Virus record (IMG/VR): IMGVR_UViG_3300032820_000040
Coordinates: 1-36,993 of that record
Length of the DNA: 36,993 nt
Direction: 5' to 3' (one strand)
Origin: a virus
The notes under the pieces are model-generated. The model saw nothing but the letters and a program-made list of their open reading frames with translations. It did not search any database and was not told the DNA's origin. Each line of letters opens with the position of its first letter. Position 1 is the stretch's first letter. Made by a program: the position numbers and the translations under genes. Positions 3,836 to 28,612 of this stretch are shown one piece after another.

Positions 3836-4890
3836 CTATTTTTAAGGCGTTAAACACCAATGTATGTATTCCACTTAATGGGGACATATATAGCCAATTA
3901 TGGTAATTCAGAGGCGTTCACCTAATTGTTTTGGTGATGTAAGGACCGTAAAAGGAGCTAACAACTCAAGATCCTAGAATATGGGAGAGAAACATATTCA
4001 AGTGTTAGGTACGCACTATAAATGAGTCCATAGTGCACCAGATAGAGAAGATATAATCATTTAGTAATTCTTTGACTAGCATTCATGCGTAGGTTTAACT
4101 ACCTGCAGTCAGACGTTCACCCTTGAACAGGGACTGACCTTGAAAAGAATGAATGTGAAAGCCTATGATAGATCCATTTAATTAATGGGGACTGGGGTCA
4201 TTTGCAAGAAGAAAGAAAAAGATTTATCTTCACTCTATCTGTTAAAAGATAATGTCCAATCCAAGACAGAAAAAGGGAAAGTGCTGTGTCCTGAGTATGA
4301 CAGATGAGGAAAAACTACTCAAGAAATAGAGCCAAGCAAGACTGGAACAACACAAGTTATAAAGGTGGCTGTGAAAGGGATCGTGGGGAGTTACCTGAAA
4401 GGGGCTGCTAAAACGTCCAAGAGAAACAAGTTCTTTATAAATTGTGCCAGGTGCTCTTACAAAATAAAGTACTCATCGGTAGGCGGTTTGCGACTACAAT
4501 CTACAGTGGTAGTCGGTTGATACTTTATATAAAGTCCTATAACAAATAGGCAATCCTTCCAACATGTTACAGCCGTCTTGAGACACATAATGTCCGCCGT
4601 GCGTTGGGTTTAGTAGGGAGTATACCCGAAACTAATGTAACAAACATGCAGGATCACAGCAAGAGGCCTGCTTAATGATACAAACGCTGTTTATACGTAT
4701 CATTTATATCTATCACAACAGATAGAATTATATTCCTATCTAGATACTTGATTGTATACGATATGAAAATAATATCTGAGATAGACAAAGAGTTCCGTTA
4801 GCATAGGCGTATGGATAGCAAAGCCATACTGGGTAATGATTTCGCACTATTAACAACGGTACCAAAGTGTGTCTATGTCGGAACTTTTTG
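3836..4890 (+). ncRNA. Structured RNA region A2
   Basis: This stretch has no gene and contains many helices. GCACTAT/ATAGTGC pair at 4013-4019/4030-4036. CATTCAT/ATGAATG (4080-4086/4149-4155) encloses a GTAG/CTAC hairpin and a GTCAG/CTGAC arm that itself holds GTTCA-CCCT-TGAAC. TAAAGTA/TACTTTA (4465-4471/4521-4527) encloses GACTAC/GTAGTC. ATGATAC/GTATCAT pair at 4675-4681/4697-4703, and TCTATC/GATAGA at 4709-4726. The last domain, AGTTCCG/CGGAACT (4791-4797/4879-4885), encloses GTATGG/CCATAC and ends in TTTTT, a plausible terminator. I see no clear shared blocks with RNA B. It may be a separate RNA or the 3' part of one transcript with A1. Function is unknown. Confidence 0.6.
4791..4889 (+). 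terminator. Closing domain and T run at the end of RNA A2
   Basis: A 7-bp helix (AGTTCCG with CGGAACT) closes a domain of about 95 bases with an internal GTATGG/CCATAC hairpin. Its 3' strand runs directly into TTTTTG. This has the form of an elaborate intrinsic terminator and marks the likely 3' end of the RNA region before the small membrane-protein genes. Confidence 0.5.
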
Positions 4891-5012: not shown

Positions 5013-5267
5013 ATGGCTAGAAGAAAGTCCGAAACCGCTTATGGTTTCAAATTTGTTTTATTGGTAATTTCTACTCCTTTCACTGTACTATTGCTAGGAA
5101 AGATATTTGCAGTAGCAAGTGCTATTTTATTTAATTGGGAAACTCACGATGTATTACTCCAACAAATCCCTTTATGGGTTCTTTGGACATTTGTAGTAAT
5201 ATTTTGTAATATATATTGGGGAACTTGTATTAATGAGGATAGACTATATGGGGAAAGAGATTATTAA
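5013..5267 (+). CDS. Small two-span membrane protein, 84 aa
   Basis: A basic N terminus (MARRKSETAYG) is followed by one hydrophobic segment (residues about 12-36, FKFVLLVISTPFTVLLLGKI and on), a short polar loop (NWETHDVLLQQ) and a second, Trp-rich span (residues about 52-70, PLWVLWTFVVIFCNIYW). The tail is charged (NEDRLYGERDY). It starts 11 bases after a 31-residue membrane protein gene and ends six bases before the tmRNA-like RNA, so that RNA may be cut from the same transcript. The fold would suit a holin or a membrane-associated exclusion factor, but no specific family is recognised. Confidence 0.65.
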   Translation: MARRKSETAYGFKFVLLVISTPFTVLLLGKIFAVASAILFNWETHDVLLQQIPLWVLWTFVVIFCNIYWGTCINEDRLYGERDY

Positions 5268-5273
5268 AATGTT

Positions 5274-5356
5274 GGGGATGATACAGGCATTGACTGTCTG
5301 CAGGGCTTATTATGAGCACAGACAGGACGGTGGTTCGAATCCGCCCATCTCCACTA
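5274..5356 (+). ncRNA. Minimal tmRNA-like RNA: tRNA-like domain without tag reading frame
   Basis: The acceptor stem GGGGATG (5274-5280) pairs fully with CATCTCC (5346-5352) and keeps the G3-U70 pair that marks alanine tRNA and tmRNA. It is followed by discriminator A (5353) and CTA where CCA is usual. Next comes ACAGGCATTGAC, which aligns without gaps to the E. coli tmRNA D arm (CUGGAUUCGAC type, with GG and GAC kept). The 3' half, GGAC then GGTGG-TTCGAAT-CCGCC (5325-5345), has the same layout as in tmRNA. Where tmRNA continues into P2, the tag frame and the pseudoknots, this RNA has only CTGTCTG/CAGACAG (5294-5300/5319-5325) capped by GCTT-ATTAT-GAGC. There is no anticodon arm and no tag frame. 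It should be chargeable with alanine and able to bind SmpB, but cannot encode a degradation tag. Loss of the mRNA-like part is known for some mitochondrial tmRNAs; I know of none described in a phage. Confidence 0.85.
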
Positions 5357-5407: not shown

Positions 5408-6276
5408 TAACGTTTTAGTAAAAACGTAGGTTGATCAGCATTGCTGAAACTCCTTACAATTAGTTAAAATATGTGGGGCTTGGCCCGATAACTCTCGTGA
5501 GAGAGTATAAAGATGTGTTAGGGGGATTAGATCCCTAACATGTTGCCATCGTAAGATGGTCAATCCAAGCACACGGACAACAGAACTGATGGAGAAATCT
5601 TTGAGGTTCTATTCTGCATTCCCATGCAGAGTTGAGTCAGAAATGGCAATAGGAAAATTCGTAGGCATAGTTATGAACTATCTTCTTCAGGTAGATAATA
5701 GTATGTGTCAGTTTTATATGGTGCTTTTGCGAGTATGCGTATATCACCGTGATGTGGAAGGCATTGCAGACTGTAGTATAGTATTTTGTGCTCCAAAAGA
5801 GTATGAAGCTGTCCTGTAAGGACTACAGTTAAATATGGGAAATCTGGATTTATGGGTTTTGCGACCTACTAAAGAAAGAAAGCAAAAGACTTGCAGCGTC
5901 AATCATCGAAAGGTGACTAATTCTCTACACTTCGGTGAATAGAGAGTCTTCAGATCCCGCAAGGTCTGTTGGTTTAAATAAGAAAATACATTTTAGGGAT
6001 GGCCGTCTTTAAAGTGCTATGAGTACAATTTGAGTAGATGATGACGATACGAATGGTAAACGCAAATTACCGTCACTGGAGAAATACTCTATGCAAATAG
6101 AGTGGATAAAGGGGTAACCGACTAGGAACTAATCTGATGGATTTCAGATTGGGGAGTTGGAACTAGCCTACGAAAGATTCTCTAATTAAAAGCCGTAATC
6201 TCAGGCTTTTAACCTCTTCGGGGGATAGTATCCTCGCCCAAAGCCAGGGCCAATACCGATACCATACCTGTTCAAA

Positions 6277-6309
6277 GCACACAAATGTCGAACCCCTCCT
6301 ATGACGTGG
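6277..6309 (+). repeat. Conserved RNA element, copy in RNA B
   Basis: This matches the element at 3741-3774: GCACACAAAT, then the identical block AACCCCTCCTATGA, then TGG. Here it is enclosed by CCATAC/GTATGG, while in RNA A1 the closing helix is CAGAA/TTCTG. The pairing is kept although the paired bases differ, which supports a real structure. Confidence 0.75.
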
Positions 6310-6351
6310 GGAAAAGGTTAATAACAATTAAGTAGTATGGTTGGAATCCCA

Positions 6352-6379
6352 GGAGATGATAGTTAAGGATGTCATCTCC
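6352..6379 (+). terminator. 3' hairpin of RNA B
   Basis: An 8-bp perfect stem (GGAGATGA with TCATCTCC) and a 12-base loop are followed by AAAATTATTTTAAC. It is probably the 3' end of RNA B, by termination or by protection of a processed end. The T run is interrupted. The next gene starts about 70 bases further on, after an A/T-rich leader. Confidence 0.5.
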
Positions 6380-26088: not shown

Positions 26089-27207
26089 ATGGAAATTAGA
26101 AACGTAATTACAAAACTAATAGGCAAAGACGATATATTTAAAATCTTAGCATTAGGGGAAGCTACTAAGCTTCCAGTTCTCTTATTAGGAGAACCAGGGA
26201 CTGGCAAAACCCAATCATTATTAGACTATGCCGCTGCTAAATTTGGTTATAGCAGAGATCTTGTTCGTAAGAACACCTTTGTTATTGAATTAGATGAAGG
26301 AACTAAGACTTCCGAAATTAAAGGAAGAGTTAATATGAAGAGCTTACTTGAGGATAAAAAGTATGAAGTAGATGCTCCTATAGTTAATGCTAAGTATGTA
26401 TTGATAAATGAAGTTGATAAAGGAACTTCAGGAGTCAGAAATACTTTGTTATCAATTATGAGGGAGAGAGCTATTTTCTATGGATCTGAAGTAAAGAAAT
26501 GTCAATGGGATGTATTAGCAGGAAGTTGTAATACAATACCCGATGATGAACTTGAAAATCCTTTTTGGGATAGATTTGTATTAACTGTAAAAGTAGACAG
26601 AGTAGGTGTAGATGGTATTAAGAATATTTGGGCACAAAAAGGACCCAAACATTTAGATATCAAAGTTCCTACACTTGATGAAATATGTGCTGAAGTAATA
26701 GAAAAAGGGAAAGCTTTTAAGTTCCTGGACTCCATTTATGATGCCGTATCTGATAGGACTGCCACATTTGCTCCTATAATAGCTAAAGCTATTAAACTTA
26801 TCTATGATGTAGATGATAATGAAGCTCTAATGAAAGCTTGTGAACTTATTGCTCCAAGTAAACTTACTGAACTAGCTACCAAACTAGAAAGTAAAAGAGA
26901 GAATAATTTAAGAACTTCTATTAATGAACTTGAAGGAGTCATAGAAGGAGGGAATGAATCTTATACTCAAACCTACGTTGGACAAATCATAACTGATTTG
27001 AAAGAAATGGGAGGAATGAGGTCTTATAAGAATAAATCTCAAGAGCTAGCTGCTATATTAGTTGATACTGTTATAAATCTAGATGACAGTACTGATGAAC
27101 TAATTGCATTTGTTAAGGAAAAATTCTGTAATAATACAGATGGATTATTTCCTGATGCATGTCAGCAATTAGAAGAAGCACTTGTCGATGCAACAATAGA
27201 AGAGTGA
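26089..27207 (+). CDS. MoxR-family AAA+ ATPase (CobS-like)
   Basis: A AAA+ ATPase with Walker A GEPGTGKTQS (residues about 35-44), Walker B VLINEVDKGT (about 103-112), sensor 1 AGSCNTIPDDE (about 143-153) and an arginine-finger-type segment ENPFWDRFVL (about 154-163). The order and spacing fit the MoxR group, which includes CobS, the AAA subunit of aerobic cobaltochelatase. MoxR proteins act with a von Willebrand A protein to remodel or load metal into partners. The next gene, 70 bases downstream, encodes exactly such a VWA protein. The C-terminal region is helical and ends in an acidic segment. Whether the target is B12, a phage protein or a host complex cannot be told from sequence. Confidence 0.85.
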   Translation: MEIRNVITKLIGKDDIFKILALGEATKLPVLLLGEPGTGKTQSLLDYAAAKFGYSRDLVRKNTFVIELDEGTKTSEIKGRVNMKSLLEDKKYEVDAPIVNAKYVLINEVDKGTSGVRNTLLSIMRERAIFYGSEVKKCQWDVLAGSCNTIPDDELENPFWDRFVLTVKVDRVGVDGIKNIWAQKGPKHLDIKVPTLDEICAEVIEKGKAFKFLDSIYDAVSDRTATFAPIIAKAIKLIYDVDDNEALMKACELIAPSKLTELATKLESKRENNLRTSINELEGVIEGGNESYTQTYVGQIITDLKEMGGMRSYKNKSQELAAILVDTVINLDDSTDELIAFVKEKFCNNTDGLFPDACQQLEEALVDATIEE

Positions 27208-27220
27208 AGGTTAAAAAAGA

Positions 27221-27257
27221 GATAAGGGGGACCATTCCCTCTTATCCTTTATTTTAT
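27221..27257 (+). terminator. Hairpin between AAA and VWA genes
   Basis: GATAAGGGGG (27221-27230) pairs with CCCTCTTATC (27237-27246; one G-T wobble) around ACCATT, followed by CTTTATTTTAT. Since the two genes form a functional pair, this may be a partial terminator or attenuator that lowers VWA expression relative to the ATPase. Confidence 0.6.
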
Positions 27258-27277
27258 AAACAAATAAATACACAAAA

Positions 27278-28612
27278 ATGGGACAATTAGATTTTAATTG
27301 GGATCGCTATTCTGGAATTCTAGGAAAAAGAGGGCTAGACTGGCTAACAGGAGGTAAATATATATTTACTCCTTATAAGGATCCGCAAAAAGCAGGAGTG
27401 TTTCAAACAGACATTGCTAAAGATACTTCAAAAGATATTACTAAAAAGATTAAAGAAAATGTAGGATCACATACTTATGAAAGAATTCTTGAAAATGAAG
27501 ATAAGGAATGGATGGTCACTGATGCATTTAAGACTTTCTTTAATGAAAAGAATAAACTTAAAATTACACCTGATAAATATTGGTGGCATCATCTTACTAC
27601 TAAGATGAATAATCATTTGTTAAAATTAGTTACTAAAGAGCATAAAGGATACAGTTATATAGCTATGAAAGCTATTATGGAAAGAATTATCAAAGTTTTA
27701 GATTCACTACGAGATGAAGAGCGAGAAGATATGATAAATAAAGCTAATGAAGCTATTGGAAAAGGACAAGCCCCAGATCTAAGTGCTTTAGAACATGCCG
27801 TTAATCTTGGGTTAAATAAAGCTCGTAAAGATATTAAGAATGCAGAGGAGAACTTTGGTAAAAATGCAGGAAAAGGATTAAGAGATGATCTGGACTTATG
27901 TGAAATTGCTGTAGATCCTCAAGTATCTAAAGCTTTATCTATAAATAGGAATGAAATTAACAGATTTGTTAAGCATGTTGCGGATCGTGCAATAGAGGCT
28001 ACTTATGGCATACCAGAAGTAATAGAAGAAAGTTTCTTTGATTCTGATACAGCTGAAGTGGATGATATTATAAATATGGAAGATTTTTCGCACGCAGCTT
28101 TATTAACTGATGTTAGTGTGAGAAGAAAACGTTATGCTATCAATTTTGATATATATTTAGATGATTCTGGTTCTATGACCAGTACTATTAATATAGGAGG
28201 GAAATATATAAAAATGAGTACCTTAGCAAGAATATTAGGACTTAAGTTACATCTTATGGGACTAGTTAGAGATATATATCTATTTTCTAATTCATTAAAA
28301 AAAGTTACTATAGGACAACTATTTAAAACCAGGTTTGGTGGAGGAACTAATATTGAATGTTGTATAACTAATGCTAAACAGTTAAAAAGAGCTTCTATTA
28401 TTATTACAGACGGATGGGATACTATCAATACATATTTTGATAAGTGCTATTTTATTGGATTAGGTATGAATCAAACATCTGATTCATTTGCTACTTATGC
28501 TAAAAAAGGAAAATTTCATTTTTATGATGATGGTAAATTTAAAGAGTCTAAACTTGTTACAGAGACTGGACCTTATGGAGATCAAACATATGTAAGAGCA
28601 AAAGGAACTTAA
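27278..28612 (+). CDS. VWA-domain protein, partner of the MoxR ATPase (CobT-like)
   Basis: The C-terminal third is a von Willebrand A domain with a full metal site (MIDAS): DDSGSM (D-x-S-x-S, residues about 293-298), the Thr of GGGTNIECC (about 353-361) and the Asp of IIITDGWDT (about 375-383). The N-terminal two thirds (about 270 residues) are helical and charged, with a segment rich in Asp/Glu before the VWA domain (SFFDSDTAEVDDIINMEDF). This layout, a long acidic helical part and then VWA, resembles CobT and other MoxR partners. In the CobN/CobS/CobT enzyme the pair feeds cobalt into B12; no CobN is in this window. With a B12-dependent reductase at 12476 the link is suggestive only. Confidence 0.82.
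   Translation: MGQLDFNWDRYSGILGKRGLDWLTGGKYIFTPYKDPQKAGVFQTDIAKDTSKDITKKIKENVGSHTYERILENEDKEWMVTDAFKTFFNEKNKLKITPDKYWWHHLTTKMNNHLLKLVTKEHKGYSYIAMKAIMERIIKVLDSLRDEEREDMINKANEAIGKGQAPDLSALEHAVNLGLNKARKDIKNAEENFGKNAGKGLRDDLDLCEIAVDPQVSKALSINRNEINRFVKHVADRAIEATYGIPEVIEESFFDSDTAEVDDIINMEDFSHAALLTDVSVRRKRYAINFDIYLDDSGSMTSTINIGGKYIKMSTLARILGLKLHLMGLVRDIYLFSNSLKKVTIGQLFKTRFGGGTNIECCITNAKQLKRASIIITDGWDTINTYFDKCYFIGLGMNQTSDSFATYAKKGKFHFYDDGKFKESKLVTETGPYGDQTYVRAKGT

Follow-up and report, generated by a model that had tools for sequence, protein, structure and literature searches.

The locus at positions 5274–5356 of the window, by which we mean the whole of a virus record from IMG/VR (36,993 bases), raises the question of whether a virus can encode a tmRNA reduced to its tRNA-like domain (TLD), with the alanylation signal kept and the message gone, as held in the original prediction, and of what use such an RNA might be.

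A tmRNA Reduced to Its tRNA-Like Domain

An Rfam search of the whole record bore out this identification: model RF00023 matches at 5274–5356 (+) with 51.8 bits (E 9.7e-18), above its gathering cut-off of 47 bits, in an alignment that spans model positions 1–374 with 310 of them deleted. The tRNA-like acceptor, the D region and the T arm expected of the family are all present (Table 1), as is the alanylation determinant G3-U70, evident in both the sequence and the fold. The element therefore has in common with full-length tmRNAs, which also occur in phages, the TLD with G3-U70, the D region, the GGAC motif, the T arm and the start of P2, but it lacks the ~310 consensus positions of the tag frame and pseudoknots, in whose place stands the segment 5294–5325. 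The insert from GAC to GGAC is 30 nt long and folds into P2 plus a hairpin, leaving no space for pseudoknots PK1–PK4; there is no mRNA-like domain (tag frame plus stop), and reading from either GCN triplet of the insert meets no in-frame stop within the RNA.

The minimum free energy (MFE) fold of 5274–5356 (−29 kcal/mol, z −2.3) has an acceptor and a P2 of 7 bp each, the former with G3-U70; beyond P2, a 4/1 internal loop leads to an apical hairpin of 5 bp, and the T arm consists of 5 bp with a 7-nt loop. Several details of the original prediction needed adjustment. The perfect P2 helix is there, although the small hairpin said to close it is an internal loop followed by a second stem; the T arm is standard in its dimensions, with U-G at the third pair of its stem; and the 79 bases assigned to the element become 80 nt ending at A73, after which CUA is encoded in place of CCA. 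The switch from C-G in E. coli to A-U at acceptor pair 5 was correctly described.

Table 1. Features in and around the tmRNA-like element of the window.
Feature	Coordinates	Strand	Basis or remarks
TLD-only tmRNA, 80 nt to A73, then CUA	5274..5356	+	RF00023; conservation in L117
Acceptor stem, 5′ strand GGGGAUG, contains G3	5274..5280	+	Fold; relatives
D-like region without stem, tmRNA type, GG..GA	5281..5293	+	RF00023 alignment; family alignment
P2 plus cap	5294..5325	+	Fold; covariation; cap architecture in relatives
P2 helix, 7 bp	5294–5300 paired with 5319–5325	+	Fold; covariation
Apical hairpin inside P2, beyond the 4/1 internal loop	5305–5317	+	Fold
T arm, 5 bp, 7-nt loop UUCGAAU	5329..5345	+	RF00023 alignment; consensus; fold
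Acceptor 3′ strand CAUCUCC (U70), discriminator A73, encoded CUA	5346..5356	+	Sequence; fold
84-aa ORF	5013..5267	+	Stops 6 nt ahead of the TLD; homologue downstream of the TLD in L002
GOLLD RNA region	5466..6379	+	RF02032, 201.8 bits; start from L117 conservation; terminator scan

Of the two kinds of search proposed beforehand, the covariance model thus succeeded, whereas ARAGORN made no call on the window. An ordinary or D-armless tRNA was rejected, both for want of an ARAGORN call and because the apical loops differ among members of the family described below, in length as well as in sequence, with no constant anticodon triplet. A permuted or two-piece tmRNA, with the missing tag segment lying elsewhere, was also sought, and RF00023 at this locus is the sole tmRNA-family match in the whole record. 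The element at 5274–5356 is a complete tmRNA TLD with the message gone and P2 capped by a hairpin, that is, a TLD-only phage tmRNA of the DS6A type, phage-encoded and consisting of the TLD only.

A Family with a Capped P2 Helix and an Invariant Charging Signal

A strict pattern scan retrieved 3 viral contigs and a looser pattern 90 stretches; altogether, 89 viral contigs besides the window share the design, with inserts of 15–45 nt. Because the scans demanded a 5′-terminal GGGG as well as several bases of the TLD, the sample covers only variants that have these. Deduplication of the scan stretches, the window and two genome matches left 68 distinct true sequences; L100, the 69th sequence of the stem analysis, is a chance match and is left out of the 68. 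When the 5′ end was free to move by one base, all stretches completed an acceptor of 7 bp or nearly so, with the exception of L059, another chance match. The pattern had left the 3′ strand of the acceptor free, requesting neither U70 nor A73, and G3-U70 and A73 are present in 68/68 distinct true sequences.

Covariation in relatives, named in advance as a check, was found in the acceptor, P2 and T stems. Pairs 1–5 of P2 form in 90–99% of the sequences, compared with ~40–46% in shuffles, and each of them is represented by no fewer than five pair types. An independent RNAalifold consensus contains the same P2 and T helices, and changes on both sides support 9/12 of their pairs (17–38 changes per pair); the MAFFT alignment misplaces the 5′ strand of the acceptor where the D region varies in length, and counts for the acceptor were taken from the anchored analysis instead. 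Inside P2 the same elements recur: on the 5′ side a loop rich in purines, often AAAG; then a short C-C..G-G hairpin; and on the 3′ side a single A or two. The CAGG / A internal loop of the window is a divergent member. Counts of loop length are approximate, as the insert of phage Shaeky was mis-split and P2 is disrupted in some of the minimum-energy folds computed for the insert by itself.

Two candidates for a residual message were discarded. In 46/68 sequences the 5′ internal-loop region contains stop triplets, a number not significantly different from the 40 expected from column composition, and the 5′ internal loop of the window has none; a short frame running from GCN to a stop exists in 18/71 sequences only.

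The intact acceptor and T arm, together with the invariance of G3-U70, would also suit a decoy that soaks up AlaRS or EF-Tu, with no part in trans-translation. Nevertheless, an AlaRS decoy would have no need of the P2 helix that covariation shows to be conserved, and the tmRNA-specific D region and GGAC occur in all matches, both having been demanded by the scan. Moreover, AlaRS and EF-Tu are abundant in cells, and we consider such a decoy improbable.

Insert sizes counted with the same anchors fall into 90 stretches of 15–45 nt, 14 of 46–76 nt, 2 of 120–150 nt and at least 120 of 270–300 nt, the last being the class of full-length tmRNAs. Judged by these sequence counts, the short-insert class is separate from full-length tmRNA and not the tail of a continuum of decay. 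As a separate observation, the inserts of 46–76 nt (or 120–150 nt; L103–L116, L242, L243) make up a second class of reduced phage tmRNAs, and acceptor and T stem are kept in 14/14 members of the 46–76 nt class.

Distribution and Annotation

Among 84,980 bacterial and archaeal genomes there were 11 pattern matches, two of which (L098 and L101) pass the stem test, and L098 sits amid phage head genes. The remaining matches fail the acceptor or T-stem test or are due to chance (L100), and L097 resembles a truncated full tmRNA. The element is nearly restricted to phages. It is present in five Streptomyces phage isolates (Shaeky, LuckySocke, GiJojo, Alone3, and pSt2308); in the three Streptomyces phages examined it is unannotated and set among tRNA genes, and the annotation of GiJojo draws a hypothetical protein over its site. 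In LuckySocke, acceptor pair 4 has become U-A with G3-U70 retained. A blastn comparison of the TLD-GOLLD region of the window against phage isolates gave no match.

ARAGORN made a call within 3 kb at 24/82 fetched loci, several of these being false tmRNA calls. The "full tmRNAs" that it placed over five TLDs (L006, L008, L010, L028, and L050) have tags unlike one another and are artefacts, which arise because TLD-only genes were joined to upstream sequence. Such false calls may sit in phage annotations.

Comparison with Known Reduced tmRNAs

A phage example had been thought undescribed, which was wrong: mycobacteriophage DS6A is listed as "TLD only" in PMC4131195 (citing Mao 2009, RNA Biol 6:355; see also PMC11915505). 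The DS6A tmRNA is similar to that of the window in being phage-encoded, with little beyond the TLD and no tag frame. The window phage is apparently not a mycobacteriophage: its DNA polymerase has distant relatives only (~28–31%), from a Leptolyngbya phage and crAss-like phages.

Frame-less tmRNAs are also found in organelles (PMC11915505). Those from jakobid and oomycete mitochondria and from Mallomonadaceae plastids are, like the window RNA, TLDs without a reading frame, but the mitochondrial gene is usually permuted and the organelle's own cell supplies SmpB. Likewise, the tmRNAs of Melnitz-type phages, full or two-piece, derive from a phage-borne ssrA as in the window, but they keep the message whereas the window RNA cannot tag (PMC9004378). 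The tmRNA database holds 79 phage tmRNAs (PMC11915505), and a literature search covering few subscription journals returned no survey of TLD-only phage tmRNAs. The TLD-only phage tmRNA is already known as a kind, and what is new is the breadth of the family, the conserved capped P2 and the invariant alanylation signal; a single oddity from 2009 becomes a broad family of 68 distinct sequences on otherwise different contigs, plus complete Streptomyces phage genomes.

A Probable Competitor of Host Trans-Translation

Fifty records, many of them fragments, were searched for partner genes, and a TLD is confirmed in 48 of these; the other two are L118, which lacks one, and L059, the chance match mentioned above. 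Neither SmpB nor a second over-threshold tmRNA was found in any of the 48 TLD-bearing records (0/48 in both cases) and therefore, to the extent that records often fragmentary can tell, the RNA must use the SmpB of the host.

We think it probable that a message-less, charged TLD competes for host SmpB and stalled ribosomes, jamming or short-circuiting trans-translation. The TLD transcript would be trimmed and provided with CCA, the host AlaRS would load it with alanine by virtue of G3-U70 and A73, and host SmpB and EF-Tu would bind it. The alanyl-TLD-SmpB complex would then vie with the tmRNA of the host both for SmpB and for ribosomes that have stalled on broken messages and, with no tag frame, the nascent chain would stay untagged and host trans-translation would be jammed or short-circuited during infection. 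In support of this competition are the identity of the element, the covariation, the invariant charging signal, the near restriction to phages and the lack of SmpB and full tmRNA in the TLD records; for the phage in the window, we infer charging, SmpB binding, timing and benefit. The reading also draws, by analogy, on a similar molecule: a DS6A-like RNA is reported to strongly inhibit tmRNA in E. coli, whether chargeable or not, perhaps by titrating SmpB (PMC4131195 and PMC11915505, citing Mao 2009).

In the reported inhibition charging was dispensable, yet G3-U70 is invariant here, which pure titration of SmpB does not explain. The invariant charging signal exceeds what titration would need, a pattern that favours a charged TLD able to enter ribosomes; entry would end either in a blocked ribosome, and hence in inhibition, or in untagged release. 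In the second case, alanyl-TLD and host SmpB would enter the stalled ribosome, accept the nascent chain and free the ribosome without a tag, so that phage proteins would be spared and ribosomes recycled, a mode already proposed for mitochondrial tmRNAs that lack a frame. In favour of such tagless rescue are the invariance of G3-U70 (68/68), which pure SmpB titration fails to explain, and the frame-less mitochondrial tmRNAs, which are found together with SmpB and have been suggested to work on incomplete messages (PMC11915505). Additionally, the record of L004 (G004) carries, on the same phage contig as its TLD, a 115-aa ORF of the RF-1 family (L247:257-604(-)) with a GGQ motif, resembling a rescue release factor. 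Nevertheless, RF-1-family ORFs are found in just 1/49 records searched, the RNA has no stop codon and hence no obvious release step, and the comparable molecule is described as an inhibitor in E. coli (PMC4131195). We regard tagless rescue as rather unlikely, and retain competition with host trans-translation as the preferred reading.

A broader proposal is that of a widespread, phage-specific family of message-less tmRNAs with a capped P2, missed by annotation, that would serve as a charging-dependent counter to host trans-translation in many unrelated lineages; we put this forward tentatively, with reservations that slightly outweigh our confidence. Provided that the RNA does block ribosome rescue in the host, many phages would disarm trans-translation, while others carry a full tmRNA of their own, and the invariant G3-U70 poses the question of why a decoy must be charged.

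Conservation and Neighbourhood of the Element

The TLD in L117/L002 is 97.6% identical to that of the window (2/84 nt differ), while the GOLLD-containing block is 75% identical and the 84-aa ORF has no DNA match, with its homologue lying on the opposite side of the TLD. The TLD has been kept while its neighbours diverged or moved, a pattern that points to purifying selection acting on the RNA and to a mobile position. This bears on the idea that the element is what is left of a full tmRNA, either as a degenerate relic or as the remnant of an attachment site; the idea gains some appeal from tmRNA genes being frequent targets of phage integration. A relic, however, would hardly keep both ends and P2 intact amid diverging neighbours, is already contradicted by covariation over 68 sequences and does not agree with a separate insert-size class; we find it scarcely credible.

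The TLD ends ~110 nt upstream of the GOLLD region, which has its Rfam core at 5769–6207 and a terminator-like hairpin at 6352–6379. GOLLD RNAs are frequently near tRNAs (PMC12286853), and the TLD could accordingly be part of the GOLLD RNA, as a processing signal, a primer or a tRNA-like anchor in a position often taken by tRNAs. Against this, GOLLD is absent from the other TLD-bearing records searched, its co-occurrence being limited to the phage group of the window, and in L002 the TLD lies ~1.2 kb upstream of GOLLD with other genes intervening. A role within GOLLD is thus very improbable, and the earlier suggestion of a priming element for the RNA downstream is disfavoured on the same evidence; GOLLD is a neighbour that belongs to a known class of giant RNAs, and not part of the TLD family.

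Two other regions of the window deserve mention. The non-coding stretch 4557–4888 (+) is conserved in L117 and L119 (76–90% by blocks in L117), has a fold z of about −1.9 and gave no Rfam match; it lies directly upstream of GOLLD in L002 and is a candidate for an unlisted structured RNA near GOLLD. Finally, 26089–28612 (+) of this phage contig encodes a MoxR-type ATPase and, after it, a protein of 444 aa that contains a DDSGS stretch and is possibly its VWA partner.
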